Both the position numbers and the translations under genes were made by a program. Positions 8,651 through 62,907 of a stretch of DNA of 64,000 bases are shown here, piece by piece. The notes below the pieces were generated by a model. That model was not told the origin of the DNA, made no database searches, and worked only from the letters and a program-made list of their open reading frames with translations. The DNA comes from Trileptium ribeirensis (lineage: Eukaryota > Nematoda > Enoplea > Enoplida > Thoracostomopsidae), in assembly GCA_030248225.1 (NCBI GenBank), contig JASANE010024751.1, forward strand, positions 1 to 64,000, given 5' to 3'. Within the stretch, counting starts at the first letter, position 1. Each line of letters begins with the position of its first letter.

Positions 8651-8653
8651 CAT

Positions 8654-9545: not shown

Positions 9546-9900
9546 ATTGTCCTAATTTCATTATTAAAATTAGGACAATTTTTACATTCTTCCCTAGGGG
9601 GAACATTCCTTTTCCCAGAGGGGTGAACTTTATTTCATCTCCGGCTGGGTAATACCTAGCGATATTCCGTATAAATATATACTTCTATTTCACCTTATTT
9701 TAAATACTCTGTTTCTTATAACCAATTTAAGGGCAAAATTCAACAAGTTCAATATTTCTACTTAAACACAAAGTTTATCAAGGATTACTTAATTTCATTG
9801 AATCTGGGTAATCCTTACCTATTACCGGTGTGTAGTAGCCATTTTCTGTGAGCTAGGATTCCGTTATTATCCCACTATTATTAATAGTTGGGATATCTTA
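9546..9900. repeat. Cluster of short perfect and near-perfect hairpins
   Basis: ATTGTCCTAATTT pairs with AAAATTAGGACAAT at 9546-9579. AAGGATTAC pairs with GTAATCCTT at about 9779-9817. ATCCCACTATTA pairs with TAATAGTTGGGAT at about 9868-9893. Spacing is irregular and no coding frame is present. The function is unknown; they may be small foldback insertions or structured non-coding DNA. Confidence 0.5.
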
Positions 9901-12488
9901 TTTCTTACAACTATCCCCGAACTAAAATATCTCGATATTTCACTGTTCCTAACTTTATACAATATCTCCAATATAGGAATTATCTAATTAGGCTCTGTTG
10001 GTCCCTTTCCGCCACTGAAAACCTCTTTAATTCCAACTAGATATCTCTTAAAACCACCCGTATTTCGACTAAAATCTACAAAATATTTCGCAAAATTTTG
10101 ATAAATTTAAAATAAATAAGTTTAGTTCAATCTGCGTCAGATTATTAGCTATCCAGTTCGACATGGTACGACGACTGTATGTATTGTTATTGTTATGTGG
10201 TATCTTTGTTTTATTGGTTTTTCTTTTTTGTATACACATATGCATTTTGCCGATTTTCTGTGGGTTACTTGCTTATTACTTTATTTTAAATTTCCACTTA
10301 TTATTTACAATTAATTAATAATTGTTACTAAATATTATGTATCACTATAATTTACTAATGTCGTAATGATAAGAATAATGTCAATTCTCTTTATTATACT
10401 TATACGAGTTTTTGCTCCGAATCTTGGATAGTTCTTGTTAGGCATTTGTGCGGTTCGGTTTACAATTTTACAGTTGAGCGACACTCATGTATAGAAGTAT
10501 ATATTTGAACACACAGGCATATATGTTTATACTGTCAAACGCTAGGTGACTGACCAGGAGGTTGTTCCTGCTTTTTCTGGATCCTGCCGAGGACGCGGGA
10601 TTATCAGACAAAGTAAGACCTGATATAGGGTTAAGGCAGACCAGACAATGGGCAGCCCATTTTATAAACGGGAACTTTTGGGTGGGTTTGGTCTGTCACT
10701 CTTTCCGGCACGTTTTTACCACCCGTTGGTTCCAGGCCGCTCCAACATGGGCTGCTCTATCGTCGAAGGCTACGACGTTGTATGTATTCCTTAGGGTGGG
10801 ACATGATTACCGGAATTATGTCTTCGCGTAAGCCTCGCCTAGGGGTTATGCAACGCGCAGGCCGGGTATATTACACGCTTAGGGGGCTTGGCGGTTATAA
10901 ACCAACACCCACGTTCTATTTAGCAGAAATCCTGTGTCACTTGTCTCATGCTAACACTAACACATAAACGTCTTTAAATTTTTCAGATATACCACCTTTG
11001 CGAATTTCTCACGTATAGTTACGAGTTCAGGTATGTACATGTATCCTCCAATGCATAAAAACTGTTAAAATATTGTTACAATATCGTTTTGAATTTATAT
11101 AAAACACAAAAATAGTTCCCGTTATACAGTGCAGATATGCGAGCCATACTTATTCACATCGCCTATGTAATTTGTTGCCAGTCCAATATCTAGTGCATAA
11201 TGGTAGCTCATTGTTAAGTTTTTGATATAATCAGTTATTTGTTGCTAACGTTTACTGCCATATATCATCCAATTTTTCAATTAACAATTGGTATTAAAAT
11301 TTTCAACCTTTTGTCTTCGTGTTGTTGATCCAGGTTGGCCGATGCCCAATTATTTTATCCAATTTGCTATTTTTGAAATAAAGTGCAAGTCACCAGTAAA
11401 CCCGTGCTTATGTTTTAGTTAAGCATTACTAAGTTTACCAAACGCCATATACCTTAAATCCAAAAATCACTAATCCTTGTGTTTTGTCTGCAATGAAATA
11501 TCTAATGCGATAAGGTCCAATATTACGTTTGCCTATTCCGAATTGGTATAATGTTAATTGTTAATCGGCAACTAGAGGGTTGTGCTCTAACTCAATCATA
11601 GACACGTGCGTACGTTTAATTTATTCAGTTTTGTTGTCCAAGACGACCTGTACATAATAATAGTTTTAGCGGTCTGCTGCAATTTGACGAATTCCTACCT
11701 TATTAATACGATCTTTAATGATAAAGCGTGGATATATTGTTTATTTTTACACAAGCAAAAGGGTTGAACACGACAGTATATGAATACCCGTACCAGACAG
11801 CTAACCCCAAGGATTCTTAAAGATTTTTAGTTTTTTGAACCAGCCCAGCTTCAGCACGTCTTAACCGTGGCCGCTTAGTCGAGCTAAGACAGAACCTGAA
11901 GCTTTCAGAACTAATGCAGTTCATTCAGGACAATGAATAAAGGTACTTCTATAAACGATTGAGATGGCGATGGCTAATCGCGTCGTTTCAAAGATTTTGA
12001 AATTCACACTACTATCCCTAAATTTCTATAAAATTAATGACTCTGTGGACTTTTACGCGAACGCTTCGCAGGAGAATCACTGCTAGGAAAACTTTGCAGA
12101 TGAACCACGGACTTGCTTACACGAGCGCTCCACGGTCATGCCAGTCGGATACTGTAGATTAGCTATTTGAGCATTTCGCAGTTGTGTTAACATGATGCTT
12201 TGGACCCGCCGACTCAAGCGCTCCATCGCAGGTCATGACGTGTTTCAGAATTGTCTAGGAGTGATGGTATAATTACGGACCTCATTTAGCTGGATTTTTA
12301 CCTTGGTAATCTAAGATACTGCGCAAAACATGTTAACGGTTCAAATTTCGTAACTAAGCCCATTATTTTCACCTAAAGTTTTAAACTCATAGATTAATAA
12401 AATCTTAGCAGCAATTTAACGGACCCAAATTTTAACTTCGAAATTTCATGAATGTTGCAGATATCCTGCCCGGTCCAGTTTCTCGAGC
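9901..12488. other. Intergenic DNA with one GC-richer open island
   Basis: Mostly AT-rich with no motif. The stretch 10545-10967 is less AT-rich and holds two overlapping + frames (10562-10831, 10782-10967), but neither has recognisable domains, a good splice context or a start context. I do not call a gene. Confidence 0.4.
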
Positions 12489-14789: not shown

Positions 14790-15345
14790 TAGTGACCACG
14801 ATTTCGTATAAAAGTGGGACAAATTGCTAATAAAATATAGTGGTCAGTATTTTTCGAAAATTCAAAAATCAACCATCCAGCCCTAAATAAGGCAGAAGCC
14901 AAAATAGAAAATACTTATGCGGTTGTAGTAATTATTAGGCCACATAACCAGGATATTTTACGCAAGCCTGTTTAAATTCTAAATATTTAAATGCCACTTC
15001 AGAGAACGTCACCTAGCACAACAGCTTGCACAGAACCGACAACGAAAAACAATGTCGGGAGCGAAGAACGATCAAACGAAAAGGCGCAATAACTAACGAG
15101 AAGCTCAAATATGACGAAAGAAATCGGAAGAAATAATGCTATAATTCGACCCGAGTACGCCAGAACCTAAAAGACAAGAACAGAAGCAAGAAAGACGCCT
15201 ACAGGAAGCCTATACCGAAATATTTCAAGAAGAAGCGAGCACCGACCAAGTATTCGGAACAACAGAAGATCGCGAAACAGAAATCCGGAAGCGATGCAAT
15301 AGCTGCAACGACAAAAAGAAAGGCAGCTACAATTCATAAAGAAGC

Positions 15346-16284
15346 ATGCGACCAAGGAGCTCGAACGAATATGCCAAAGTTACAATGAAGACGAAGCGAG
15401 CTCAATTCGACACGAACTACGATTCCTTCGTTACAATCAACGACCAATCCGGTACAACTCAAACACGACTCAGTGCCAGCCGAGACCAAATGGATACGAA
15501 CTATGTTCAATTCGGAGCAAATAACGATCAACTCGGTGCAAATAGACGACGATTCAATGAAAATCGTGATCAATTCGATGCAAACTGTGACGAAACCGGT
15601 AGAAATAAAGAACCAACCGGTGCAAACCAAAGCCGACTTAATGCAAACGGTGACCAACCCGACGCAAACTACTACCAATTTATCGCAAGTGAAATTTGAT
15701 TCAAAGCAAATCGATAACAATTCGGGGCAAGTAATGATCAATACGTTTCAAGTCTTGAACGATTCGTTGCAAGTTGCGATGAATTCGGTGCAAACCAACA
15801 TCGATTTGACAAGAAACGAATGCGATTAAATACAAATCGAGACCAAATTGACACAAATTACGAACGAATAGACACAAATAAAAACGAATTCGGTGAAAGT
15901 CAAATACGATGCAATACAAACCGGGACCAACGCATCGTAAGCCAAACGGGGAACACATCGGATCGAGCACAAATCCCGAGCGCGACAATGAATTTCGGTT
16001 CCACGCAAAGCGAGAATGGATACAATCGGATGCAAACCCCGTATGTAACAACGAACTGCGGCGCGTTTCAAACGATGAATACATGGAATCAAGCGCAACC
16101 TACCTCCACCGGTACATACAATACAAAAGGCGCATATGGGTACTACGATGCAATACCATCAGTCCCACAATACAACCAAATTCCACTCGCGAATGGCAAT
16201 TCGATGATTAACCCCGGAGCGCCGTTAGGAACAACAACACCATCAACCACCACAAACAACGACGACAACGAGTCAAATCAATGA
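15346..16284 (+). pseudogene. gag N-terminal region with 25 tandem heptads
   Basis: Positions 15403-15927 hold exactly 25 in-frame 21 bp repeats with consensus (Q/R/E)-(F/L/I)-(G/D/N)-(A/T)-(N/S)-x-D. Clear copies read QFGANND, QFDANCD and QIDTNYE. The phase is kept throughout, although TGA (15697) and TAA (15709) interrupt the frame. The same 21 bp period leaves the +1 frame open at 15473-15829, but that frame is not continuous with the following N/T/Q-rich segment (15928-16284) and I regard it as a shadow. The repeat could form an extended assembly surface; coiled-coil character is uncertain because only one position is strongly hydrophobic. Confidence 0.6.
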
Positions 16285-16288
16285 TCTG

Positions 16289-16828
16289 ATGACATTGAAC
16301 CAACAGTTGATCGAAGTATTGACCAAAGTGGTGACCAAAGAAACGCCACAAGTACCGATTACAACGCAACAATCAGTCGGCCGAGCGATTATGGTCAAGA
16401 TGGAGAACGAGGCCCGAAACCTACAATCGTACAAAGGTGAGTCAAGCTTCGAGAAATTTCGGAAAGGACTCTAAAAAGCGCTGGCTCAATATGGGATTGA
16501 TGACGAGCAAGAGAAGTTGAGAGTCTTGAAAGCAAAAATGAGTGGGAAAGCAGAAGAATACATGGAAGTCTTGACGCTCGAAAAGGTCAAAGAACTCAGC
16601 AACTACAACGAATAAGTGGAGAAGTTCAAAAAAAGATTCGACTTGCCAAAGACATTGACGAATCACCTGAACAAGCTGCAAAGCTTACGGCAAACGGGAA
16701 CGGTCAAAGACTTCGTAGATGGTCTACGGGTGTACGCAGCACGACACCTCACCGCGAAAGCTATACCCGAAGTTATCGAAGAAGTCCTCAAGTCTGCGTT
16801 GATCACAGGGTTAAAGAACGAAATCTGA
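16289..16828 (+). pseudogene. gag capsid-like domain of gypsy element
   Basis: Read in one frame with stops at about 16472 and 16613. The translation contains FEKFRKGL, a charged helix, then VEKFKKRFDLP and a LQSLRQTGTVKDFVDGLR segment. This layout (W/F..F..RF ... L.Q..TV.DF...) is that of the retrotransposon gag family. It is a defective copy: the stops split it into three pieces. Confidence 0.6.
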
Positions 16829-17224
16829 AATCGATTGTGCGCGACAAAATAAAAACCTCTATGACATTGACGGAAAAAGCAGATGCATTGGAAAGCCATG
16901 ACCAGCAAATGACCCAAGGATTACAAAGCACAAGATAACAACGATCAAGTATCGAGAGATCCAATCTAACCGACCGGGCCAGTCGAACGTCAACCAAACA
17001 AGAACAAGTACGGTCAACAGATATGGCGACCGAAGGTACAAAGATTATAAATGCAATGGCGACCACAACCGTGGAGCAATCGACCGATGCAAGTACGTCA
17101 ACCGCAATAGCAACAGGTAGCGCAACTGTGCGCAACACCGATACCGATGATGCCAATGCAAACCGACTGGAATTACCAGCAACCTATGCAACTATACTAT
17201 GGACAGATATGAACACAGCAACCG

Positions 17225-17467
17225 ATGCTACAGACGATGCAACCGGTGCAAGTACCACAACAACCAATGCAACCTGAAATAAACTGGCAACAACAACAGA
17301 AAATGCCAGCACCGATAGCAAATCAACAGCAAAATCAGCAAACGGTGATGAGCCAAACGCCACCAAAATGCAACAACTGCGGAAAGGTGGGCCGTAGAAT
17401 GGAGCAATGTATCCCAAGAAATGTGGGACAAAGTACAACAGAAACCCTAATGGGAAATCAGCAATAA
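17225..17467 (+). pseudogene. gag nucleocapsid: Q/P-rich tract and zinc knuckle
   Basis: Glutamine- and proline-rich (MQPVQVPQQPMQPE, then QQQQ) followed by CNNCGKVGRRMEQC. This is a CX2CX4HX4C knuckle in which the histidine position is arginine, so zinc binding would be impaired. The reading frame is broken upstream and downstream. Confidence 0.7.
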
Positions 17468-17680
17468 GGTCAAAATCGGTATAGGACAATACCAAACCGA
17501 CTGAATTAATCAAACGAAATAACGAACGACCGACCACCAAATCGAGCGGGGTAGAAAGAAAAGAATTCGGGAAATCGGTGGACTAAAAGAAAGAAACATT
17601 CGTAGAACTAAATAAAGTGAATCAATCGAGAGAACACGAACCATGCAGCGATCCAACAGTCCTACCACGGTGCCACATCA

Positions 17681-18115
17681 GTGCACATCCAGAAGGGAAC
17701 GAAGAAGCGACAGGGTTTGGTCCATACTGGATCACAAATAACGATCATCAGCGTGGAACAATACGAACGGCATTTCAAACACCTACCGCTCAAAGAAACA
17801 GCGTTATGCGTAGCTGACAGCAGCAGAAATCTAACAGAAAGAGCAGTAATCTACTTCTTACATGTCCAATTAAAAAAGAAAGTAGGAAAGATCCGGTTCA
17901 TAGTAATCAAAAACTTTTCAAAGATTGCGGAAGACGGTCACGATTTCTTGGCAGCATTCGAATTGGTGATCGAATACCAACAGTTACGAATCAAAATGGA
18001 AGGTCGATCGATACCTCACTGTTGGAGGACTAATAAAATGGAATCGATCAGCCAAGAAGATCATAATCACCTTGAAATTTGCAAGTGTTCGTACAAACAA
18101 GTGATCCCACCATGA
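17681..18115 (+). pseudogene. Aspartic protease domain of gypsy element
   Basis: The motif GLVHTGSQITIIS corresponds to the catalytic L-V-D-T-G-S of retroelement proteases with Asp replaced by His, so this copy is catalytically dead. Downstream is FIVIKNF and an HDFLAAFELV segment in the place of the usual I-L-G-x-D-F-L block. It ends in a stop before the RT-connecting region. Confidence 0.7.
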
Positions 18116-18496
18116 TCAGCGAGATTCATCAAAGTAAAGACTCCGGAAGGAACAAAAGAAGGTGATACGCTAGTGGTAGAACCGTTGATGAAGACAAACA
18201 ACGGCCTGGAAATACCGAACAGTATTGTCAAACTAGAAGAAGCAACATCATGATACCAGCGTGTAATCTAAACACAGGCGAAATCGAAATAATTGAAGAT
18301 CAACCACTGGTACGAAAAGTAGAAGAGACAATCGTAAGAACGGTAGCCTACGAGGAGAACGCCCAAAGACCAATGGATCGGTTTGAAAAGAAAAAAGGAT
18401 GAACCAAATGGAAAAGAAAGAAGAATGCGCAGAATGGATCAAAGTCGGAAAAATAGGAAAGCCAATAATCAAATCGCGGACCGTTGAAATTCAAAT

Positions 18497-18945
18497 AAAG
18501 AATTCACAGACTACCTGGCGCTAAGTACCTTTCAACCCTCGATCTTAAGTCAGGATATTGGCAAGTACTAATGAAGGAACAGGATAAACAAAAGACGGCG
18601 TTCGTCTGTCAAGATGGACAGTTCGTGTTCAATGTCATGATGTTTGGATTAACGAACGCACCTGCAACATTTCAAAGAATGATGCAATTGGGTCTAGCGG
18701 GCGTCCTGATGGAATCATGCTTATGCAACCTCGATGACATCATAATCTTTTCAACGTGGTTTTGGGATCACCTATACGGTACCAGTCAAATACTACAACG
18801 ACTTCGCGAAGAAACCTTAAAAAATGATCGAAGTGGGAATTTCTAACAGAAGAAATTCTGTTTCTGGGATATACGTGTCGAATAAAGGCATCTCAACTGA
18901 CCCTGGAAAGATCGGGAAGATACAGAATTTCTCGAAACCCGTAAT
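18497..18945 (+). pseudogene. Reverse transcriptase core of gypsy element
   Basis: STLDLKSGYWQV (first catalytic Asp), then FVCQDGQFVFNVMMFGLTNA, PATFQRMMQ and CNLDDIIIFS follow in order and in one frame. The usual YLDD box reads NLDD. A frameshift after 18846 leads to FLGYT, the block after the catalytic box. Homology ends near 18945. These blocks are diagnostic of Ty3/gypsy RT. Confidence 0.88.
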
Positions 18946-45760: not shown

Positions 45761-47238
45761 AGATAAGCCTCTTTCCCGTCTTTAGGTTTTCCAAGCTCTA
45801 ATCACGATATCACGCTGATTTGCATAATAGTGTGCTACAATTTAATTTTAATTAGTTTAGTTTATTCTGGAGTGAGCCGTTCAATAGCTGTTGCCGAATT
45901 TGTATAGGTTTTGAATTTTTCTTTCAGTTTTACACGACACACGCAAGAATTACGTCTTGGATGCTAATTATTAGGGATGGTCTCAAAGAGAAGTCCCACG
46001 TTTTTCTGCTTTGGTTTATAGTTTCCAGATGCAAAGATTTTGTACCATCGTAAGTTGGAGAAAAGTGTATGCTGGATGACGGACTAAGATCACATAGCAT
46101 TTGTAAGCGAAACCACAATTACCTGGCGTTCGAGGATTATATCCAAATATTGGGCGCTGCATAAGAGAAGTGCTGATAAGACAAGAATACAGGCGGTGTT
46201 GGCTTAGAGAATTAAGCCTATAACAAAATAAAACCTGAGTGGCATAAGATCATTTATTAAAATATAGATTCAAGAATTTTGTCCCGAGTTAGCCCTATAG
46301 AGTGAGAACTTGAGCGAGATTTAGTAAATTAATGGGAAACTTATTGAGCATCCGGGGTGAGAGAGAAGGGTGTCGCACTAAAACCACCCTATTTTAAGAT
46401 TTTTCAGAAATTCCTTAAAGTTACCTGTCAGCATTCTGGTCGCGTGTTGGAGGACCAGTAGAAAAAGTTCAACTAGGATGTCAACTAACGTTTGTGGCAA
46501 TATAACTCTCGTACGTTCCGGTCTGGTGTTCGGGTAATAATATAAGACGTATATATTAGTAATATTAAATCTAAGGTCCTAAGTTGAGATAATTAAATAG
46601 AATGGGGTAACTGCGGTCGCGATAATTCGTGTAAAGCTAAAGACGTAATAAATTAGTAAATAACTTAAACCATAAAGTATTAGAATGGGAGCGCAGCAGT
46701 CAGAAGTGCAGGGACACAAGTAGACACGAAACGAGCTAAAATATCAGTGGCCAGAGATAAACGCAAACCAAAAAGAATTGCGTACTGTTTGGTGTCTCGT
46801 GCGTTTGAATTGTATTAACAAAAATATACATTTCTACCTCGTGCTTTTGGTGCCGAGTATTGCAAAACACTAGTGCATAGTCATAGTCAGACAGCTGCGC
46901 AAGATACGAATTACGCTAAAAAGAACGCGTGCCAACACTTGCTGATTGGTGTGTCGTACGTTTGAATTGTATTAACAAAAATATACATTTCTACCTCGTG
47001 CTTTTGGTGCCGAGTATTGCAAAACACTAGTGCATAGTCATAGTCAGACTGCTGCGCAAGATACGAATTACGCAAAAAAGAACGCGTGACAACACTTGCT
47101 TTCCCACTGGCATACTGGCCACACCTCGGACCACACAATTTTCGGTGACAAATCCCGTCCTCCGTCGAAAAACGACATAAAATCTTATTGCCAGCCCACC
47201 CCCACCCCTCCCCCCATTTAAAAATTCAAAAATAACAC
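45761..47238 (+). mobile_element. Last LTR-like unit(s) of array 2
   Basis: Starts internally near TTTTCCAAGCTC/GATTTGCATAAT and ends TTCAAAAATAACA. Near the 3' end a segment of about 170 bp (AATTGTATTAACAAAAATAT ... ACGAATTACGC) is tandemly duplicated at about 46807-46925 and 46966-47075. The 3' block CCCACTGGCATACTGGCCAC follows. Confidence 0.5.
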
Positions 47239-48956: not shown

Positions 48957-49059
48957 CCCTGGATATATTCGTACATACAGTCAATGTAAATTTTAGAGAT
49001 TATGCGGCACACATTATTTTATTGTCTATTTACAATTGCTGTTTCAATGTTGTAGCATA
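48957..49059 (+). promoter_or_regulatory. Presumed 5' region of Apaf-1-like gene
   Basis: Between the element end and the ATG. CAATGTTGTAG/CATAATG just before the start could be a 3' splice site, so the true first exon may be non-coding and lie further upstream. Confidence 0.3.
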
Positions 49060-49275
49060 ATGAGTGTTATAAAAATTGATATTGCTGGAATTTCATCCAG
49101 GGGCAATGGACTACAAACCAGTGATACCATCATGGGAATGCAAGGCAGGGATCTTCTCTTACGGGCACAAGATGAGCTAATAAAAAATTTTCCATTTGAT
49201 GCTGATGTTCAAGCTCGTCTGATCTCACAGCGCTTCTTGAGTGAAGTCGAGATGCGTGATTTGTTGCAGAAATAT
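49060..49275 (+). CDS. APAF1: Apaf-1-like exon 1: CARD helices 1-3
   Basis: 72 codons. ATG 49060 gives a 24-residue extension before MGMQGRDLLLRAQDELIKN; ATG 49132 or 49138 would start nearer the usual Apaf-1 N-terminus. FLSEVEMRDLLQKY matches the F-L-x-x-x-E-x-E turn of CARD helix 2-3. Donor TAT/GTAAGT, phase 0. Confidence 0.85.
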
Positions 49276-52200
49276 GTAAGTTTGCTATAAATTTACTGTT
49301 AACAATTTTTCTTGAATCACAGATTGCTGTAAATGGTAACACTATATTCGAGTATTACGTACGCCGTATGTGCATCGCGTTTGATCATATCCTGATTTGT
49401 GACCACGTTACATTCGATTTGGCTATCCCAAATTCTAATACGACTGTATATTAAATATATATTGTACGTATTTGTCTTGCTGCGTCATCCAGCATGGATC
49501 TAATATTTGTGTATGCGAATCTGATGGCATCGGACGCAATGTGATCACGGTCTTAGCAACTGGCTGAAATACTTCTTTAACAGACGTGGCGACAGAAATT
49601 CGGCCGTATATGCTTTTTGACACATATTAATCAAATTATTGAGCGAAGCGAGGCGACCGAGCGATGCTTTTTTATTTTCTGTCTGGGAGCAAAAAAGTCG
49701 ATGTCCGTTCGTCCGTTAGTCTTTCATGGATCTCAAGAACCACTGAACCTATTTCAAGAAACTTTTTTGTTTGAAAGCTTATCATGTGAGGATGTGCACC
49801 TGATATTTTGGCAACTTGCTAATTTTATCATTAATTAAGCTAATTATCTAATTAACAGCCTAATTAAGCTCATAACAGCTTAATTATTGGTCGTAGAATC
49901 GTTTTAACGGCATATTATACCATGGGGTTTTCAGGTATGGCGAATAGCAACTCTTACATTTTTAATTATGCGTTTCCAAGCCTACATGTTCAGAATTCTT
50001 CGGTATGGGATAGGTAGCATGTGTAATATTATTTTTTAACCTACTTGCTGTACATTGCTATTTTCGATTGGTGAGGTTGAGTTTTCCATGGGGAAAAAAG
50101 AAAATAGATGCATTGTACATACAGGAATAGTATAGTACGAATGTTATAGACAAAATTATTTTCAGACTTCGTGTCCTATGATTTAATTGCTGTGCTTCGA
50201 TTGCTATTCATCACCATGCTGTCTAAGCCATGTGGCTTCCTTTGTCTTGCTTTTCGTTCGAACGGAATAAAACTATTCTCTCATTTACTCATTGTTGTCT
50301 AGGTAATAATATATTCCCAAGACATTGAGTACGTTCATATTACTAAAGCCGACGCTCCGCTCAAAAAAATGTAGTTCCACTACGACTGGTTACCTTATTT
50401 GTATTGCCGTAACTCTTATAAATTATGCATGAGTAAACTTAAGCAGTGCCGCCTACCATCATCTTTTGAGGCTATGTACAAAACACTGCTAGAGAATAAA
50501 ACTGTCGTATAGCCAATACCAAATCCAAAAATTTCCGTTCGCTATCGCAGAGCGACTGGTTGAAAAATGGGGTAATTTCTGTTCGCTAACACAATACACC
50601 TGTTTGCTGTCAACAACACGCAACGTTGTAACTCGCATTCCGCATTTTTTCGGTTCGCTAGCAATGCAATTTTTTGTATTAGGGACCGTTTTTGAGCCAC
50701 GAGCCGAAAGTTTTAAAAAGACCAACAACAGTGAATTTTTTAAAATGTCGGCTAAGTTGGTTTCTTGCTTGCTGGAGGTGAACTGTAGGCTATTATTATT
50801 ATTAGGTATTATTTACCCGTTAAGCATCTTGATTTCGTTGTTTCAAACCTTGTATATGTTATTTACATTGTAGGACGGTGGCGGAGGCTAACTGTGATAA
50901 TTTTATAACCAAATTGTCAGATATTGATATTTTTTCAAGCTGGCTGTACTTGTGGGAGTAAGCTGCGTGTATAGGATTTCGGGTGCAATGAACATAATGA
51001 ATGCAATAATGCTTGCATGGTGTGTGTCCAGTTCGGCATTGTAAGCGCTTAGTGGCTGTAGCGTGAAAAGTAACTCCTGAAATTGCAAATCTCAATGAAA
51101 GTGTTGATTTTTTAAATTCAAAACTTTCCCCCTTAGTAGTGACGGAAGAAATAATATAGCGTCCCATGGTTTTAATATGTGCTGAAATGGCCGCAATGTT
51201 GCTCGTAATGGTACAACAAAATATTTAATGGTAAATAATAGTATCGTATTAGACATGAAGTATCACGTTTATTCACAACAAAAGACTGATTCCTAACGTA
51301 TATGTTGTTGATCTACACAGTAACAAATAAACCCAGAAGAAGAATATTAAGCCGGTTACCTGACTAAAGAAGTTATATTGAAGATAGTTTTCAAGATTCT
51401 TTTTATTTAATTGTGGTATGAAAGTGTCTGAATCTTTAGCTGTAATATTGGTGGCCGTCTGACCTAGTGATTACCAGGGCATGCCTCACAATCGCTATTT
51501 TAGATATGTAATAACAAGCTATAGTTTAGTCTGCAATTTAGGTATTACGTTAATTTAAAAACTATTTGGCCTTATGATTTGTCAAATTGTTAACCTTGAA
51601 AGGGAATTTGAGAAAAGTCATCGTCAAGTTTTGTCACAGGGGCTTTCTTGATGAAGTAAAATTTTTGAGGAGCTGTAGCAGGAGAACAAAAAATCTTGGC
51701 AGTGGTAACTAAAAACAACAAGGGACAATAAACAACACATAACTCAACCAGATGACGGTTTGCTCTCAAAAAGCTTTGCTGAGCAGCTCTTAAGATACCT
51801 CCAAACGACTGCATTTTGTACTTATTGTGATCCATAAATAAAGCTAATGTTTTTCCGTTGTAAAATCCTATTTCGAATCTGCCCAGTGAAATTCTTTCCC
51901 TCATTTACTTTTCTGACAGTAGGAAAGCTGTAGCTGGAAATGGTATGATGTTGATGATTGTGTAAAATTTGAGTTTCAGAATTGTATAAAAATTAGAAGC
52001 TCCTTAATAACAATGCGAGTCACAGTGAATTACACCATTAACATCGGAATGTAATTAATCCGACGTTTTCTAAGATAATTAATGTATAACTTTAGCCTAC
52101 GGAGTCGAGCCGCGTTGCAGCATTTCTGAAGTTATTGCCGTACCGGTGTGTAGACTTGTCGAAATTTATAAAGCTAATGGAAACGCTGGGATACAATTAT

Positions 52201-54391
52201 CTTGCGCGCTGGCTGCGTCCAGAAACATATCTGCTCATTAAGTCTTACGATGCAAGCGAGCGGGACCACGTTGAAACTGTGCTGAAATTAGGTAAAACTA
52301 TATTTCGTTACTTCGATGGTAATCTAGGAACAGAATAGTGTAGTTGAGGACGGCTTGGCTAGTTTTGATTTATGCTTTGGGCCATGTGTTTCCACTATAC
52401 TTGGCCTTCTGAATCTAAGACAGTTGCAACTCTGTTTTAGTGGCAGCTACATATATAAAAATGACCGCTGTAAACAACGGTGCAGTGCCATCTCCTTTTC
52501 CCTACCTTTTGGTCCATGCGAGGTGCAGAAGGACAGTTTAAACTACAAGTGGTACGCTCACAATCGGTCATGCTACTCAATTTACAGACCCCGGAAGGAT
52601 GAGTCTTCCTGGCCCGGGTTCGAATACCCGCAAGTGAGTATTAAATTGGTCTGCAAATCATGGATATTATAAGCATTTCCTGGTCATGATCCCTGGACTG
52701 AAATGTTGTGGGTAAATATTCACTTAGAGTTGGTCTGGAACTGTACTCAAATAAGCTTACAGGCTCAGTTGGTATGCCTTATAGTTTAAAACTTATTTAC
52801 CTTCAGCTATATATAACATTAAAAACTTTAAATTGTGGTTCCGAAAGCACTGATATGGAGGGATGTTCCGGTGTCAGTTGTTTTCATATTGGTATTAGTA
52901 GAAGTAGTGTTTATTTTAATATGTAAATTGCATGGAACGGGTATATAAACTTTATTAAATTAATTTTGCTGTTGCATGCGGGTAAACTGAAGAAGGATCG
53001 GTCCGCTAGTTTACGTGTCAGCACATCCCCGAAATTTCGGATCTCCGGCGCTGCACTTTGAGTTTTCCAGGCAAAAAATTTTATTTTTGTATTTTGGAAA
53101 CAAGAGTGGCTGGGTAAATAAATGCGATGGGACCGAAGAAAACGTACCTACATTTAGTTCGTAAATTTTGCTCGTACCTTTTATTTATATAGCCTTAACG
53201 CCGATGTCGACAGAAAAAATATACCTGATAATGATGTTGTGTTGAGTTGGGTTTAAATGTAACACCACTCCTTTGCTTGTTATGGTGGAATATAGAACTA
53301 TTTTTGACTCCTTCTATATAAATTATGTTGTAATTTTCAAAAATATTTTTTAATCTCGCAAAATTGTAGGAAGTGGGTTATGTCATTACATTTCGGTAAA
53401 TAAATCCGCTGGAAAACCTAAAAATGGCTATGCCGTATCGTTATTTTATATATGCCCAGATTGGATCTAAAACATTCAGCTCAATGGTCCGACAATATTT
53501 GATAGTTATTGTATATACTTATTGCGGAGTTGTACCAATTACACTTAATAGCACGCGCCTCGAATATATATTGCACATTGGAAACCCGCACTACTCTGAC
53601 CTCATGATTTGAGACGTCCATCGACAGCCACTGCTCCTCACGGCAAATGTAACTAATATATACCTAATAAACTTGTGTATATAATATATAGTTAATATAG
53701 AAGCGTACTTTTATATTTGCTTATTATTATTATTATTCTTTTGAACTTTGTAATAATCTGGCTTGTCTGTTTAGATTTATTGCCTGTTTGCTATTTGGGT
53801 ACGTTTTGGAAATGACCGACTATTGCGAAGGCATAAAACACTCTCCTACAGTGTTTTTACTTGCATACGTAATATTAATCATTCAGGTAGTGTTCCCTTT
53901 CTACCGCAAATTCATGTCAGTCGGCCTTCGCTTACAAATCGGCTGAAAGCAACTTTACTCGATATGATACGAACGAATTGTCACTATACAATTTTGCACG
54001 GTGGACGGGGTGTCGGTAAAAGCATTTTGGCCGTCGAAGCCCTGCGTGATTCAAGCCTTGTTGGAACGAAAAGTCCTTTTCGGAGAGTTTTTTGGCAAAA
54101 AGTCGGCTGTCATGTGTTAACACCATCACCTGTTCAGCATCTATCGACAGTCGGAACAACCACAAGTTTGGCGCATCCAGTGGATTCAAGTCGATCTAGT
54201 GCAGACAGTGTCATTACTCCTAACCAAAACATCGGCGTTGAATCTCCATCTGGTGTAACGCCTGCACCAACCGTCGACCATAATCAGTGAGTCTTTTTTG
54301 GTTAATGTTGAGCCATAGTATGGACAATAATGTAATGCCTATTGCGATCTGTGAAACCTTATTTACGAACATGTTATACAGAGTTAAAAAT

Positions 54392-54451
<60 letters not shown>

Positions 54452-57400
54452 CCAGTAATGTAATTGCAAGCTCAACCTCCTTGCACCACCATGTAGTCCG
54501 TGTTTATTATTTCAATTGGCGATGCGGGAAACATGCCGAAGTGACTGAAAGTTAAGCGCTCTGTACTGCAAGGAAATTTCCTCTTGCTAAGGTCGTCAAC
54601 ACTTACCAGTATTTCTGTTCAAGGCAAACAGAATTCTGACGACGTTTCTTGCGACATCAAAACGGTGCACTGCGGCTTTGAGGACAAGGGCGGACCAAAA
54701 TAGGGGTGACGTGTACATAAATACTTTAGTTCATTCAAAAACGGTTCATTACAAAATAGGATGTTTGACGGATGTGTCACCTTAAGTTTACTCGCGCAGC
54801 ATTCTGCAGCACGCCAGTTTATGAAGATCGGTGAAGACAAAGAGTCTGCACGCCAATTTAGGACGACAGGTGAAGACGAGTCTGCAGTGTATACGTAATA
54901 AACGTTACTATATCGTCGAAGCGTCATGTCCTTCCAAGATTATCTACCACTAAGCTGTGATTAAAATACCACCCAGAGAAAAGCCCCATGTGCTAAAGAT
55001 TAATATTGCTTTCTAAAGCCTAGTTGTGCAACAATTTTATTACCGAAAATGTCTGCTGAGCAGCTCACTGGCTAAATATGGTGCGCAGCGAATCATAAAG
55101 TAGTGGGTTCGAATCCTATCTCTTTGGGGATTTTCTGGTATTCTATATTATCATGTGAGCATCAAGATTCCATTCATACATAGGTTTTTGCAAAATCCGG
55201 AATATTAATTTCAAATGTAGCTTTAAAAGCAAAATCGATTTTTGTGGTATCGAACACCCCACAAATATGCAAGACGATGGAATGACATAGTTTCCATAAC
55301 ATCTCAGCTTGAGTCCATGGTATTTCATAGGGAATAAAGTAGAGTGGCGTTCTTACATGGGTGCGTAAGTATGCTGATTATCATGTACAAGTCTGCAGGC
55401 CAACACTCATTCTTTAATGACATTATCAATGATTTTTTATATTTTTCTTCACAAGAAAGGCAGAAATACAAGTCGAATATAAAGGTTTTATCACTTCATG
55501 TGCTGCTGAGGCTTTTGAATAAAATCGACCTAACATAGCTCTTTATTAATGCAAAATGGTCTGTACACATTCAGGGCCGAAAACACTCTCGCCAAAGTAT
55601 TTTCAAGCTAAGATATTTCATTAGTGTAATGCTACATATCACGCTAGGACTATGGGTATTAACTACGATATGCCGTCATTGTCGCTATGAGTTTTATATT
55701 CTGTTATAGTCCTGTTGAAATCGAAGTGTAGTGAACAAATTGAGCAAAGCAATGAATTCTTACTAGCTGTATGATGGAGCAATTATTGGACTATGAGCGT
55801 TATTAGGTTTTTGAAGCTGACTCGCATAACTCAACTTGCGCTGGAAGGATTGTTTCGCGCGATCCCTCAATGAAAGGTTGAAATAGTTTGCTTTTCTGTT
55901 TAGGCGCAAAGCCCGATTCCGAAATCTTCCCTCTCGAATCATCATGCCGAAGGGCCTCGGGTCGCGTTGCGAAGGGGCCCAAAAATAACATTATTTACTG
56001 GATCTCGAAACCGGTGTGGGTATCTGTGTCAAATTGGGCTCATTTAGAACAAACTTCTGTAAAACTGAATAAAGTGCCTTTCTGCACGGCTGTTTTGGGA
56101 TATAGGATTTGGGTCAAAGGGGCTCTTGCAATAGGTTTACGCGATTCAAGCTATTGAGAAACGACACTATCTGAGTGAGCCATAATGGATGTTATTGGTC
56201 TTATTTTGTAGAGCAACTCGTGCTCTATATACCTACAGGATTGAGTCAAATTGTTTTTTGAATACGCCCATCGAACCTGAAATACACGAAAACGGCAGTA
56301 TGTGCGCAACCGCTCCAGATATAGTTTTCATTTTGTTGTGTAATTTATCTCCTAAATACTTGTGCATACACATTCAAAATACGCATTAAGTGTGTATATA
56401 TCCGTACACTGTTGAAGTAACATGGCTGACATTTTGGCTCATTTTGCAAGATGATGCTCATTTGCTATTTACGTCTCTCTAATTGCATATTCAACACTTT
56501 CAATTTACCACCATGGAGATAAAGAGCCCCCATCATCGGTTCGTGCTCCCTGAAAAAATTTTGGGAGAGCCCAGTCGTACAGCACCCTGCTATCAAAATG
56601 AGATCAGATACAGCAACTGTGTTATGCTGAAAAACTGAATTGTATGCTTTGTGACAAAGCTGCAACAGACCTTTACATTAACAACTTAGAAATTTATAGT
56701 AAGAATGTACAATATAGGTATCAAGATTCTGGGCTCTGTGTTTAACGTACGTAAGCTCATGGATACGCATTGGCATAACAGTCAATCTAGCTTCTATAAA
56801 CTACCAAAATTATTCCTGGGGCATAACTTAGGGAACCCCCAATTAGCAGCTGAGAGAACCGAAAATAATTGGGCACTATAAAGTACTGTCACTGTCAGAA
56901 AACGTTTAAACTGCTGCTAAACAGCAAGACGTATGAAAGTGCCTGGAAGCATGAATTGGGTGGAATCTAAAATTCAGCTGAGGAATGAGAAACGTCAACG
57001 GTATGGATTACTAGAGGTACCTACCTGCCGCCCCTTTCCCATTTGTAGAAGCTATGACCCAGTCTTTTTTGCGAGTATTGTTATAACACATATGAACCTG
57101 AACCTGTGTAGACTCAACAGTTGAACACCGTTATCAGGTTTGCTCCAGATTGATCCAGGCATTGACAAGTAGTACAGAGACCGTCAAACCACATAAACCC
57201 ATTACGGGCATGGAAGGAACTTTGCATTTTATTTGCCGCTGTCTCTAGAAGCAAGGTTTTCCAGTGATATCAACAACTCGTATACTCAACCTAGGTTCAG
57301 ATGTATTGTTAAACCTTGAGCCTAATAGCAACAGCTGCTGACAAGACACACATGGTGATGGCTTAATCAGTACCAGTCTTGGGTTGAAAAGAGAGATCGG

Positions 57401-60400
57401 ACTCTGATTTTATGACAACAAAGGAAGTAATAACTTAATATTATGGTTATGAGTAAGCAGTTTAACCATAGTTATGCTGTGAAATTATGAGCCAAATCGG
57501 AGGAACAAAGCTGCCCACAACAACGTGGAGATTACCAAACTACATACAACAATCGTTAGCTTGGGTTACGTAATTTTGATCCTGTGACTTTGAAGAAAGC
57601 AGACATTGCTGTGATGTCGTTATTACGATAAATTATATAAGCATAGCTATACTATGGAAACTTCAGCCAAATGGGTCCAGTATCAGCAAAATGCGCGTGG
57701 TAATGACTAAAACCTGGAAAACCCGGGCCGGAAAAAGGACTTTGACCCTCGTATTTACGAAGGGATTGCGCTGATAGCAAATTTTGCAAATTCACATGGT
57801 ATATAATGTAAAATTGCCAAAGTAGGTGTTTTCTTCTAAAGTGGTTTCAAAACATGGTCTGAGTTAAGTTGGCTGCACAACGCTATCGGAACACACGGGT
57901 TCTATCAGACAACACGTCATCGAGTTACAAATTCCAAGGATAAAAGTTAGGATTTAATATCAGCTTGCCACCATCGTTATCTGCAACGAACAAAACTCCA
58001 CGAGGATTTATCACACTTTGTTTGCTCAGGAGGATTTATCACACTTTGTTCACTCTAGTTCAGTCAAGCTCTTTAGTTTATATATATTTGAATTCTGTGT
58101 GCCACCGTAGATTTCATAGTTTTAGTGTGGTAAAATTTGAAACTACTAGTTTGTATATTTTTCTTTTGGCATCCATAACTCAAATTTGTGCCTTTCTGTT
58201 AGGCGCAGTTAGCAGTTTCAATTAAAGCTCGGTTGGGTCGAAAAAGCCCGGACAAAACACGTTCTTTGTTGTATTTCGACAAGCTTTGCAAATATTTCAG
58301 TCAAATTAGATACATTTTGTAGAGATGACAAGGCTCTGTGTAACGCTTTTGCACAAGGTTTTTTCCTTGGGTACACGAGTAATGTTCACTTGGGCACAAG
58401 ATTAAGGTTTATAGGAATTTTAAAAGTTTCGTTCAAAAAAATGGTCATAGTCTCCGTAAAGATGAAAATGGTCATATCTTTACAGAAATGAAAATATATT
58501 TGCCTATTTTGATTCATTATTAAGCTATAGTTACCTATTTCTGAGATTAAGTGAAGGGGCTTTTGAAGTGGCCTCATCTATACGCGAAAACGGTCTGATC
58601 TCCATAAACGATTTAGATATATGGGTGATATTGAGCTCACTTCGCACAGCAATATGCATGACACGGCTTCTTATACAGCAGCTCCAGCACTGTGTAGCTA
58701 TGAGCTGTAGGTTGCTACAACGTGTGGTTGCATAGCTACATAACATCTTTATTCGTTAAACATGCGTTTGCTATGAGCTTCGTATATTTCTTGTATATCG
58801 AGAGAAGTGCTGCGCTTTAACCTGTACAAATCGGCAGTTCTATGCTTGACAAAGTCGAGCGATAATGATATGGTGGCTTCTCCAAACACCAGGGGTTGCC
58901 ACCCAACGCTTTTCGTCTCCCCAAAGTCTGGCCTGTGCCCACTATGCTCCCTACGTAATTTTGCGCCCCGAAACTAGATTTTTAGCTCCAAAAACGTTCA
59001 TGTTTACAGTTTTCGAAGCTGTGTTTCGAGTTTTAGTCCCAAAAATGTTCGAAAAAACGCTCATTTTTTACAGTTTTTGCCCCTTTTGCACCTTTCTTTC
59101 GATTTCTAGCTCCAAGATTTTTCAGTTGTCCCCAATTTCAAGCCCCCTTCCCGGTTTTTTGCTCGTCCTCTTCCGAAGAGGGGCTCATATATTAGTGATG
59201 GAACTTTTACTGAACGACTATATACCTGTTGCTGTTCATGATTTAGATTTTTGTTACGCATACAGCAGCAAATGAAATTGAATATTAAATATTCACACAG
59301 TATTTGCGTTTTTTAGGCTTCTGAAGGTGTTGCTGTCTCTCGTTGCCAAGTTGGCTAGTACAACCAGTTTCCAGATGTCATCGAACAAGATTACACTCGG
59401 TTACGCTAGTATTGAAGAAGCGGCGGAAAAAATTCGCTCAACTCTGTGTCAGGCTAGTACAGTAAACGTTTAGCTAATATAGAGTTTGAAAAATAGTGGT
59501 TTTAGTTTAATATTATGGTATACTGCGATATAACGGTTTTTTTCAAATGGCTAGCCATTCGTTTCACCATAACCGTTTTAATAACAAACCCACCATTAAT
59601 AACAAAACAATTTTTAAACCAAAATTAATATAACTAGTAAGTCGCAAGCGAGGGTGAAACGAAGCGAGCGTAGTTTCATCAATTGTTTATTTTGTGTAAT
59701 CTCTGGTAATAGGCTTTGTGTTTGATGTATGTACTACACTAATACCTCTGTTAACCTGAACCCATTGAAAACCCTAAAACATCGTGGACCATAAACCCAT
59801 CAAAAAGTGAAATCATATGGAGTATTCGTGTTAGTCTCTTGATAACAAAACCATCGCTTTCAGCATAATTAAGAATAACAACCTAGATATAAACCAGTCT
59901 TGATATCGTGTACGAAATACGTTTCCAAACTACTGAAAGAGAGACTGTATTTCGACAATCGGTTTCACTGACCCTCAGTCCATTGAAAACATCTGAAAAG
60001 GTGTGAAATATTCATGCTGGTCTCTATATAACCAAACCATCCTTTTGAGCCTACCGTAAAACCTATATATATATATATATATACACTATTCTTGATGCCC
60101 TGCAAGCAGTGAATAACCAAACAAATGAATACACTACATTTTAGAAATCGAGTTCATCGATAGTAAAACCCTTGAAACCCCAGTGAAAACGTATAACATA
60201 GTCAAGTTGGGCACTAAATAGCAAAACCGCGTGCTTCATAACTTAACAGACACTCGTTTCAAGGTAAAAACACGCAACAACATGTCGAAATTTGAAAATT
60301 CGTTATCTTTGGCAAAGGGTCGACGTGCCATATTAAGGCGCACAGCTGCCGAAGGAGTGATCCCACAAAAATTTTTGGTCACCAAATTTATAGATCTCCA

Positions 60401-62284
60401 TGAGCTGATTCTGCGTTGTAAATATTGTTTCCGACAGACTGGCACCCGTATGGCAAAGTTTCGCTAAGAATTCGCAAAAACCTGTTTTTGGTATTTTGAC
60501 CATGAAGGTGCCGTCGGAGCTGTTCACATTCGTAATAACTTTTGCTATTGAACATAAATTATCAAAATCCGTCTATCTGAAGATGAGTTATGACTGACAC
60601 TAACAGACACCATAGAATTTTTTAAGATCCCCCACCCAGCGCCCTCATTAGAAACTCCGTTGGCTTCGCTCACTCTTTTCAAATATTTGCAAGATGTATT
60701 TTGATATTTACCAGCTTTTGTAGCACAACGAATGTGCTTATTTGAATGTTCATTGCAAAATTATTCATGTCTATCATTTCATGTAAGATTTATAAGCTAA
60801 GGTTTAATACCAGCGTCACACAGTGTCTTAATAATATTAAGAGTGCATTTGGGAAAAGTATGACGCTTCCCTGTACTCAAATATTAGCCTGTGTTTGATG
60901 ATACGGTCGTTTTCGGCCTGACCCACCTTCCAGTTTTTGAGGGGGTTTGGGGGGATCTCGAGATGCCCCGACTCCGCCCCCAGGTTCTGGGGGGTAGCTC
61001 GGACCCGCCCAGTTTTTTTTTGGTGGGGGGGTCGGTCGGACCCTCCAATTTCTGTGAGGGTCGGTTCAAAAACATCTGTTTATAAACCGTCCCTTTTAGA
61101 AATGGGCGGTCAGGCCGAAAACGCCCGTATCATCAAACACGTTCTAACATGTGAGTGCAGGGAAGTGTCATACTCTTCCTTAATGCACTCTTGATATGTA
61201 TTGTTTAAAAATATTAGTAAGTTATATATTGAATTAATCACAATTGGACTGATCACGAGAAAAGAAATATATTTGCAAGCTGGAGAATAAGACGCTACAG
61301 TACTACTGATCAGAAAATTGCTTTAATGACTGTGAAGGTCATTTAATGGTAGTCTCGTTTCAAAAGAATAAACATCGACCGTAAATGGGACAAAACTAGT
61401 CAGTTTTCGAACATGTTTCTACCAAATAAATTTTGAACAGTTCACGACCAAAGTAAAAGCGCCCTAAAAATTTATAATTCGAACTTCAACATTAAGTTGA
61501 TTCTCTTGCGATCAAATTTTTAGCACTAACACCGAACGAGCATTTAGCGAACGCAGAACGAACTGCACTCAATTCTTGTGAACGGTTTATGTAGGGAAAT
61601 TGAATAATTTTTAGGATTTTGTTAGCCATTGGAATTACGCAGCTATTTTTGCGGAGTAATCGTGATTTAAAGCTGAAATGTGAAAAATAGATTTGATTTC
61701 AAAACAAGAAGCTTTTTCAGGCACGGGCTGTGAATTTAAAGTAGCGATATACAAATTCGCTTTTTAGCAAGAATGGAGATCTATGACGAAATTATCCCGA
61801 AATGTGTTTTCAAAATACTGCATTTGTTAGCAACTATGCGATGAATCGTTATTACACGTTGTATCATTCCATATTTTATACATGTTTTATTTAGATTAGT
61901 TCTGTCGTTCAATCCATATATATGTGTGTGTTATGATTAAGTTATTTTTTCACGCTGTCGTAGATATGACTTCTGAACTTTTATTTCTAAGCACAATTTT
62001 ATATCACCAATAATGAATAAATACTTTGTGATCTAATACCTGGATGACTTTACTACTTAATTTTCGTTATGTAGGATTTTCCGAACTGCCTTTTGGTGCT
62101 TGACGACGTGCCTTCGAAGGATGTGGCTCGTATTCTTGATTTTGGCTGTTTTACTTTGGTAACCACAACTGACGAGGGTGTTGCAGACGTATATGCGGGT
62201 CCAAAGCAAAAATTCAAGCTCAGCGATCCATTTACGCCTGAAGAAAGCGCGGAGCTATTTGCGATCACGATCAACTGTGACAAG
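49060..62284 (+). CDS. APAF1: Apaf-1-like apoptosome ATPase, 5' part (six exons)
   Basis: Apaf-1/CED-4 proteins bind (d)ATP, oligomerise and recruit initiator caspases through a CARD. Six exons (49060-49275, 49323-49365, 52121-52291, 53887-54286, 59317-59461, 62075-62284) have GT-AG borders and agreeing phases (0, 1, 1, 2, 0) and give 395 residues before the donor at 62285. CARD: residues about 27-130 (GRDLLLRAQDELIKN ... KFIKLMETLGY). Linker: HVETVLKLG to QIHVSRPSL. NB-ARC: P-loop GGRGVGKS (182-189, Lys188), IEEAAEKIRSTL helix, Walker B CLLVLDDV (330-337), then LVTTTD and LSDPFTPEESAELF. Order and spacing follow Apaf-1. Odd points: about 50 extra S/T/P-rich residues after the P-loop helix, and Thr in place of the sensor I Arg. 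The 3' part is beyond the window. Confidence 0.87.
49323..49365 (+). CDS. APAF1: Apaf-1-like exon 2: 43 nt microexon (tentative)
   Basis: Follows a 47 bp intron with a pyrimidine-rich TTTTTCTTGAATCACAG acceptor. It ends at CGCC/GTATGT, phase 1, and joins exon 3 as a Pro codon. It encodes 14 residues with a Thr at the helix 4 cap position and closes an otherwise missing part of the CARD. An earlier donor at 49336 (phase 1 as well) would give 13 nt instead. Confidence 0.55.
49366..52120 (+). other. Apaf-1-like intron 2
   Basis: 2.75 kb. Holds a GAGCGAAGCGA/TTAATTAAG repeat (about 49640-49870), an end of the GAGTAAACTTAA TIR family (about 50425-50470), and a minus frame of 105 codons at 51590-51904 with no recognised motif. 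Otherwise featureless. Confidence 0.6.
49636..49875 (+). repeat. GAGCGAAGCGA / TTAATTAAG repeat, second copy
   Basis: TTGAGCGAAGCGAGGCGACC, GTCCGTTCGTCCG, AACTTTTTTGTTTGAAAG and TAATTAAGCTAATTA match 12800-13030 in order. Non-coding. Confidence 0.6.
52121..52291 (+). CDS. APAF1: Apaf-1-like exon 3: CARD helices 4-6 and linker
   Basis: Acceptor GTTGCAG; begins with two bases of a split codon. FLKLLPYRCVDLSKFIKLME and TLGYNYLARWL match the last CARD helices (F-x-x-L-x-x-x-G-x-x-x-L-A-x-x-L). DHVETVLKLG aligns with the linker before the ATPase. Donor TTAG/GTAAAA, phase 1. Confidence 0.85.
52300..52670 (+). repeat. Possible tRNA-derived SINE in intron 3
   Basis: GGAAGGATGAGTCTTCC hairpin followed by GGCCCGGGTTCGAATACCC, a B-box-like element in a short T-arm-like hairpin (52590-52632). 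The preceding 250 bp are GC-richer than the flanks. The A box is unclear. Confidence 0.35.
52671..53886 (+). other. Rest of Apaf-1-like intron 3
   Basis: AT-rich, a short (TTA)n at about 53724-53738, two short motif-less + frames. Nothing else seen. Confidence 0.4.
53887..54286 (+). CDS. APAF1: Apaf-1-like exon 4: P-loop exon with S/T/P insert
   Basis: Acceptor AATCATTCAG, donor AATCA/GTGAGT, phase 1 in and phase 2 out. It encodes PFLPQIHVSRPSL, the TNRLKATL helix, ILHGGRGVGKS (Walker A), ILAVEALRDSSLV and FRRVFWQKVGC (Apaf-1: H-W-V-S-V-G). Residues 219-276 are a Ser/Thr/Pro/Val-rich segment not present in Apaf-1, which has about six residues there. The frame stays open right up to the phase-matched donor, so the insert is probably translated. 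Confidence 0.85.
54394..54450. repeat. (TA)n microsatellite, 57 bp
   Basis: Uninterrupted AT dinucleotide run of about 28 units, likely polymorphic. Confidence 0.95.
54600..54930 (-). mobile_element. Partial copy of GAGTAAA TIR family
   Basis: ATTACAAAATAGGATGTTTG then TTAAGTTTACTCGCGCAG (54755-54805) is the inverted form of the 29760 end. Nearby CGCCAATTTAGGACGACAGG and CGCCAGTTTATGAAGATCGG are short direct repeats. The matching opposite end is not seen. Confidence 0.45.
55050..55135 (+). repeat. tRNA-Met-like SINE head
   Basis: GAGCAGCTCACTGGCTAAAT, an AATCATAAA anticodon-loop-like segment (CAT) and a perfect B box GGTTCGAATCC are spaced as in a tRNA. Stems pair poorly, so it is a tRNA-derived SINE or pseudogene rather than a working tRNA. 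Confidence 0.5.
55735..56330 (+). repeat. GAGCGAAGCGA-type dispersed repeat, copy c
   Basis: TTGAGCAAAGCAATGAATTC, CGCATAACTCAACTTGCGC, TTTCGCGCGATCCCTCAATG, GGCGCAAAGCCCGATTCC and ACACGAAAACGGCAGTATG follow the same order as copy a (23109-23640). Frames on either strand are shadows. Confidence 0.55.
57995..58060 (+). repeat. Short direct duplication
   Basis: GAGGATTTATCACACTTTGTT occurs twice 32 bp apart (from about 57999 and 58031) with CTC after each copy. Confidence 0.8.
58080..58640 (+). repeat. GAGCGAAGCGA-type repeat, diverged copy d
   Basis: ATTTGAATTCTGTGTGCCAC, GGCATCCATAACTCAAATTT, TTAGGCGCAG and ACGCGAAAACGGTCTGATC keep the family order, but similarity is patchy. Confidence 0.4.
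59317..59461 (+). CDS. APAF1: Apaf-1-like exon 5: helix between Walker A and B
   Basis: Acceptor CGTTTTTTAG, one base completing a Gln codon, then 48 codons to ACA/GTAAAC (phase 0). LLKVLLSLVAKLAS and YASIEEAAEKIRSTLCQ correspond to L-L-x-K-L-x-x-L-C-x-R-L and I-E-E-A-K-D-R-L-R in Apaf-1. Confidence 0.82.
59462..62074 (+). other. Apaf-1-like intron 5 (2.6 kb)
   Basis: Contains a (TA)n run at 60064-60083, a GCAAGCGAGGGTGAAACGAA repeat-like phrase near 59643, a 78-codon + frame at 60231-60467 with charged composition but no known motif, and the foldback element at 60833-61197. Confidence 0.6.
60833..61197. mobile_element. Foldback MITE, long inverted repeats, TA flanks
   Basis: Left AAGAGTGCATT, AAGTATGACGCTTCCCTG then TGTTTGATGATACGGTCG and GGCCTGACC. 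The right arm is the inverted copy (GGTCAGGCCGAAAACG, CGTATCATCAAACA, CAGGGAAGTGTCATACT, AATGCACTCTT). Arms of about 90 bp flank a GC-rich centre with G runs. TA lies on both outer sides, suggesting a Tc1/mariner-type TA target. Non-coding. Confidence 0.7.
62075..62284 (+). CDS. APAF1: Apaf-1-like exon 6: Walker B / sensor I exon
   Basis: Acceptor CGTTATGTAG, donor GACAAG/GTATAAG, phase 0 at both ends, 70 codons. DFPNCLLVLDDV is Walker B with the Asp pair; FGCFTLVTTTDEGVAD aligns with the Apaf-1 L-L-T-T-R-D sensor I block but has Thr for Arg; KFKLSDPFTPEESAELFAI matches the following strand and helix. Nothing downstream to 64000 resembles the next NB-ARC segment. Confidence 0.85.
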
Positions 62285-62471: not shown

Positions 62472-62907
62472 TTATTTTAAGCCCTCCCAGATAGGGGTCA
62501 GTAAACGGAAAAATTTACTGACCCCTAAGGGGTCAGTAGCAAGGGGTCATTTCGGAAACTAGGGGTCATGACCCCTTAAGGGGTCAGTAATTTTATAAAA
62601 ATTAATACATTTTTTCTTTCAGGTGTCCCAACATACGCCTGTGGCGCTGGTTTTTTTCAGTTTTTGGCCATAATATATAGTAAAAAATTCATATTTTAGG
62701 TTTGGTGACCAAATAATTGATCGTTTAGCCTACGATATGCGTGTATATGAGTATAAATTTTTTAGTGACCCCTTAAGGGGTCAATTTTTTGAAAAAAACG
62801 TAAATTTTAAGGGGTCGTTTTTGCGAAAAAATAGGGGTCGGTGTCTAGGGGGGAAGCCGATCCTTGGGGTCGCCCCCCTTCCCCCCTCTAAAATAACCCC
62901 GGGGATA
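62472..62907. mobile_element. TIR element with GGGGTCA repeats
   Basis: CGGGGTTATTTTA at the left and TAAAATAACCCCG at the right are perfect inverted 13-mers flanked by a 7 bp direct GGGATAC (target duplication). The interior holds about eight (A)GGGGTCA or TGACCCCT motifs, several as CCCTTAAGGGG palindromes. Non-coding. Confidence 0.7.

Follow-up and report, generated by a model that had tools for sequence, protein, structure and literature searches.

Do the scattered open frames between positions 49060 and 62284 of a contig from the nematode Trileptium ribeirensis (NCBI GenBank assembly GCA_030248225.1, contig JASANE010024751.1) belong to a gene of the Apaf-1 family, and does the encoded protein carry the nucleotide switch of human Apaf-1? 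We analysed the first 64000 bases of this 105158-base contig (the window) and followed the gene into the remainder. Five predicted exons at 49060-62284 very probably represent the first half of an Apaf-1-like gene, comprising a CARD-like region and the NB-ARC domain. The gene adds one more member to a family already known and is ordinary in kind, its altered switch residues being the sole surprise.

Identity and exon structure of the gene

Joining the five exons of the window gives a 389-residue open frame without a stop codon. A phmmer search of the PDB (177635 distinct sequences) with this frame returned seven matches up to an E value of 1, i.e. six Apaf-1 chains (best 2.9e-19) and CED-4 (3e-7). 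When the model is lengthened to 563 residues by three predicted exons beyond the window, 13 matches up to an E value of 10 are obtained, comprising six Apaf-1 chains (best 6.4e-34), one CED-4 chain (9.8e-7) and six DARK chains (best 8.2e-5). The Apaf-1-like identity put forward in an initial annotation of this DNA is thus upheld, as Apaf-1 ranks first among the PDB structures, ahead of CED-4 and DARK. Of the two domains named there, NB-ARC passes the Pfam cut-off on the 389-residue frame (32.4 bits, cut-off 23.5), while the CARD remains without a Pfam match. The NB-ARC assignment is certain; the presence of a CARD is likely, though it is diverged, and it is the weakest part of the window model.

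The structures matched belong to human and mouse Apaf-1 (PDB 1z6t, 3j2t, 5juy, 3jbt, 3sfz and 3shf), whose domain order is like that of the predicted protein as far as the latter can be read (CARD-like region, NB-ARC, HD1, winged helix and weak WD40-like frames). Over residues 1-460 of the human protein 138 of the 432 aligned residues are identical, and Walker A (GGRGVGKS), Walker B (LLVLDDV), Arg129, Pro321 and Tyr359 are common to both. The alignment with DARK (Drosophila; PDB 3j9k, 5jul) covers NB-ARC to HD1 (query 293-415) and is much weaker and shorter than that with Apaf-1. Apaf-1 has been reported from many animals including flatworms (PMC8998228, PMC5595316 and PMC4445527); among platyhelminths and other invertebrates it is described in Schmidtea mediterranea and Schistosoma (PMC8998228; PMC5595316, which names Smp_140260).

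The predicted exons of the window are as follows, with a slash marking the splice border.

49060..49275, + strand: exon 1, with start codon, 24-residue leader and predicted first half of the CARD; phase 0 out, donor AAATAT/gtaagt
52096..52291, + strand: exon 2, predicted second half of the CARD and linker; phase 0 in, 1 out, ctttag/CCTACG ... AATTAG/gtaaaa
53887..54286, + strand: exon 3, beginning of NB-ARC, carrying Walker A GGRGVGKS and almost the entire Ser/Thr/Pro-rich insert; phase 1 in, 2 out
59317..59461, + strand: exon 4, middle of NB-ARC, LLKVLLSLVAKL...IEEAAEKIR; phase 2 in, 0 out
62075..62284, + strand: exon 5, Walker B LLVLDDV and sensor-I strand; phase 0 in, 0 out

All four introns among these exons are of the GT-AG type and their phases, 0, 1, 2 and 0, agree, so that the agreement of splice phases claimed earlier at every junction holds for five exons. 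The outer ends proposed in the initial annotation are right to the base: 49060 is the first in-frame ATG past an upstream stop, with none between that stop and 49060, and 62284 is the end of the last codon ahead of the exon 5 donor. The exon count is five, however, and not six as proposed. A sixth exon is not needed between exons 3 and 4, because the former ends and the latter begins in phase 2. We looked for one in 54287-59316 and dropped it: a permissive tblastn search with human Apaf-1 (E up to 10) gave no match there, although a short extra exon could escape this search, which also missed exons 1, 2 and 4. At the 5' end, the ATG is preceded by the four bases cata and these in turn by an acceptor-like tag (49050-49060), which could mark the end of an intron in the 5' untranslated region or be a trans-splice acceptor.

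To lessen circularity, each exon was scored alone against human Apaf-1 with 1000 shuffles; exons 1, 2, 4, 6 and 8 were also scored against just the part of the protein where they should match, with 5000 shuffles (region-limited). The scores of exons 3, 5 and 7 were reached by none of the 1000 shuffles, and in tblastn exon 3 matches human residues 110-188 (E 5e-7) and exon 5 residues 229-303 (E 2e-6). Exons 2, 4 and 6 each find their best match at the expected place: exon 2 at human 47-87 (151 of 1000 shuffles reach the score, 42 of 5000 when region-limited), exon 4 at 195-228 (35 of 1000; 3 of 5000) and exon 6 with 8 of 1000 and 0 of 5000. Exon 1 alone has its best match on the wrong part of Apaf-1 (243 of 1000; 169 of 5000), but exons 1 and 2 joined give a score against the human CARD and linker that a single one of 5000 shuffles reaches. 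The earlier statement that every piece matches the correct successive part of Apaf-1 is therefore true of four of the five window exons taken alone, weakly so for exons 2 and 4, and of exon 1 when it is combined with exon 2.

Several results weigh against the assignment. The splice sites were picked with the homology in view, so that the agreement of the phases is supporting rather than independent evidence. Exon 8, beyond the window, misses its own place in human Apaf-1 (780 of 1000 shuffles; 819 of 5000 region-limited). The CARD encoded by exons 1 and 2 has no match of its own in Pfam up to an E value of 10, and in the PDB up to the same value no relevant one, a single unrelated chain appearing at 0.79. 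A homologue search with the 389- and 563-residue models (7135 and 7997 candidates) found none, a result that says little because the length filter of 0.55 to 1.75 times the query bars full-length Apaf-1. Finally, a search of the whole genome (687459628 bases in 20229 contigs) for the NB-ARC family (E up to 0.001) gave no matches; as it missed the present gene too, its sensitivity to single exons is too low to exclude a second copy. If unrelated frames had been joined by wishful splicing, one would expect pieces such as exons 1 and 8, which miss their own place, and exon 2, which 151 of 1000 shuffles equal. This explanation is barely credible, given that exons 3, 5 and 7 each lie beyond all 1000 shuffles and that exons 2, 4 and 6 match best at the expected place and in the expected order.

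The gene beyond the window

Three further predicted exons, in phase with exon 5, would encode HD1 and the winged helix.

64522-64643, + strand: exon 6
65737-65905, + strand: exon 7
66948-67178, + strand: exon 8

The eight exons hold 563 codons without stop or frameshift, all seven introns are GT-AG and all seven junctions are phase-compatible. The PDB alignment continues through HD1, where GHP stands at the human GSP site and to which the score of exon 7 also speaks, and with the 563-residue model it reaches residue 427 of Apaf-1, within the winged helix. Here the Pfam model APAF-1-like_WHD gives 16.1 bits (E 0.014), under its cut-off of 27 and so a point on the opposite side. The winged-helix assignment is accordingly a weak one, suggested by the order and phase of the exons, by the last stretch of the PDB alignment and by the weak Pfam match. 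The predicted exons, eight in 18 kb, form a layout liable to be split by short-exon gene finders.

Further downstream, we built a WD40 profile from 14 repeats of human Apaf-1 and ran it on the 3614 contig frames of at least 20 residues on both strands. The top three frames all lie downstream on the + strand, at 98783-99124 (E 2.2e-4), 92618-92887 (0.014) and 83957-84295 (0.24). Within the last of these, LRPHEAKIYRLCYYNHDNSPFVISCAADGYIK aligns with human residues 611-643, where the propellers start with the first WD repeat. Pfam WD40 was matched by three of six downstream frames, at 92.6, 98.8 and 103.4 kb (E 0.017, 0.0052 and 0.017). Weak WD40-like frames are thus found at about 84, 93, 99 and 103 kb on the strand of the gene; human Apaf-1 has two C-terminal WD40 propellers with 15 repeats (PMC5050015). 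By its in-phase exons the gene is predicted to extend from 49 to 67 kb (18 kb, 49060-67178), and it would extend to about 103 kb, some 54 kb, if the WD40-like frames belong to it. The winged-helix and WD40 exons for which the initial annotation proposed a search in the next part of the contig are in this way partly recovered, HD1 and the winged helix lengthening the Apaf-1 match and WD40 yielding weak frames only.

These downstream results also hold points that join those counted above on the negative side. Every WD40 and winged-helix match is under the Pfam cut-off, and no Pfam match was obtained for the remaining three of the six frames (two at 87.6 kb, one at 100.7 kb). The frame at 92.6 kb has an equally weak match to an unrelated helicase domain (E 0.018), and one antisense frame reaches z 5.3, level with the WD40 frame at 84 kb, so that no single WD40 frame is decisive. 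The frame at 98.8 kb fits the WDHD1 WD40-propeller model slightly better (E 0.00048), also far under the cut-off. HD2 was not identified; a candidate frame at 72901-73095 on the + strand, aligned weakly with human 466-491 (z 5.3), was dropped since the alignment is weak and no fitting splice border was seen.

The sub-threshold WD40 matches and the failure to identify an HD2 would suit a CED-4-like protein or another STAND NTPase rather than the WD40-bearing Apaf-1 type, and CED-4 is indeed the second molecule found in the PDB searches, its CARD, linker and P-loop region (C. elegans; PDB 2a5y) aligning with query residues 54-207. CED-4 is not known to have WD40 repeats. We consider the reading as a CED-4-like protein very improbable: the match to Apaf-1 is much stronger than that to CED-4 (6.4e-34 versus 9.8e-7), so that the model is not closest to CED-4, and weak WD40-like frames lie downstream on the same strand, unlike in CED-4, the first of them aligning to the first WD repeat of Apaf-1. 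Because of these frames the Apaf-1 type is the likelier of the two.

Nucleotide-switch residues and the NB-ARC insert

The comparison of the Apaf-1-like model with the human protein centres on the following positions.

54018..54020, + strand: codon of the Walker A lysine, Lys182 (human Lys160)
62102..62107, + strand: Walker B aspartate pair, Asp329-Asp330 (human Asp243-Asp244)
62168..62170, + strand: sensor-I position, codon of Thr351 at the site of human Arg265
54108..54286, + strand: NB-ARC insert of 60 residues (212-271), against about 6 in human (189-194); its last codon is finished in exon 4

Human Lys160, Ser161, Asp243, Asp244, Arg129, the HD1 proline Pro321 and Tyr359 are kept. In contrast, Arg265 is replaced by Thr351, Asp392 by Gly480, Glu366 by Gln454, Ser325 by Asn411, Lys391 by Val479 and Trp246 by Pro332. 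The LHD motif containing human His438 reads LSD at residues 545-547 by eye, as the global alignment leaves it unpaired; Arg265 and this histidine are both features of the human-type switch, and here the former is absent and the latter appears to be. Human Trp184 is misplaced by the global alignment; in the PDB alignment its partner is the Trp in VFWQKVG. A residue other than arginine at the Arg265 site is also seen in the PDB alignment with the mouse Apaf-1 chain 3shf, which has a Ser there and which we take to be an engineered mutant.

Human Apaf-1 has a carboxyl triad of Asp244, Asp392 and Asp439 that is partly neutralised by Arg265, which is itself held by Glu366, and a second sensor may be provided by Tyr359 (PMC5050015). 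That Arg265 and two of its partners are all missing here suggests that these changes are linked. With the sensor-I arginine and its neighbours Asp392 and Glu366 changed, and apparently the winged-helix histidine as well, the discrimination between adenosine diphosphate (ADP) and deoxyadenosine triphosphate (dATP) is, judging from the predicted residues, likely to differ from that of the human protein. If the altered sensor residues are lineage-wide, they would provide a natural test of which contacts are truly needed by the ADP/dATP switch of the apoptosome.

The human protein also lacks the 60-residue NB-ARC insert. Its placement follows from the alignment of exon 3 up to human residue 188 and of exon 4 from residue 195, and 25 of its 60 residues are Ser, Thr or Pro. 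A more far-reaching proposal, which we regard as unlikely, is that the Arg265-Asp392-Asp439-His438 network has been reduced by three of its four members, that the apoptosome opens without reading of the gamma-phosphate by sensor I, and that the Ser/Thr/Pro-rich insert is a new latch, possibly controlled by phosphorylation.

The changes at Arg265, Asp392 and Glu366, the LHD histidine that reads as Ser by eye and the weak conservation of the CARD and winged-helix exons might instead mark a decayed or silent copy of Apaf-1. Such a pseudogene is quite improbable: a freely decaying copy would be expected to have gathered stops, whereas the eight exons with their 563 codons and seven in-phase GT-AG introns contain no stop or frameshift, and Walker A and Walker B are intact.

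As an active member of the Apaf-1 family, the protein would likely work as a nucleotide-switched scaffold that gathers and activates caspases, i.e. as a platform for programmed cell death. If it acts as human Apaf-1 does, the ADP-bound monomer would be kept closed by the WD40 propellers in the absence of a death signal. On such a signal it would open through nucleotide exchange, after which the NB-ARC domains would assemble into a ring and an initiator caspase would be recruited by the CARDs.

Repeats and other features of the contig

Several repeats lie in and around the gene. The fourth intron, which separates exon 4 from exon 5, contains a 90-base inverted repeat pair (60834-61197; 87% complementary, 184 bases apart), which looks like a small foldback or an insertion of the miniature inverted-repeat transposable element type. 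About 100 bases past exon 3 there is a perfect (AT)28 microsatellite (54394-54449), and in the intron after exon 5 a 33-base block occurs twice (62569-62798; 85% alike) with the palindrome CCCCTTAAGGGG and further GGGGTC motifs around it. About 2 kb upstream of the gene, a 157-base unit is present twice in tandem with 96% matches (46785-47100).

Non-coding RNA searches were negative, with no Rfam matches at gathering scores in 109158 bases and no transfer RNAs found by ARAGORN in the window. The stretch at 15340-18846 holds long A-rich frames, with an AT skew of 0.40 at 16001-18000, and after them, at 18499-18843, a reverse transcriptase frame (Pfam RVT_1, E 2.1e-17). Its appearance is that of a degraded retroelement whose gag-like part is of low complexity, with much Asn, Thr and Gln. 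A second reverse transcriptase frame, 373 residues long and uninterrupted (RVT_1, E 1.7e-26), lies about 11 kb beyond exon 8 on the - strand (7916-9037 of one downstream contig piece). By its look it belongs to an element without long terminal repeats, and its best relative is 48% identical; the homologue search with this frame gave 95 matches, including nematode, moth, liver fluke and lancelet. An identical 87-residue frame occurs twice on the + strand, 669 bases apart (9022-9282 and 9691-9951 of another downstream contig piece), in the interval that separates the 84 kb and 93 kb WD40-like frames; this is a recent local duplication.

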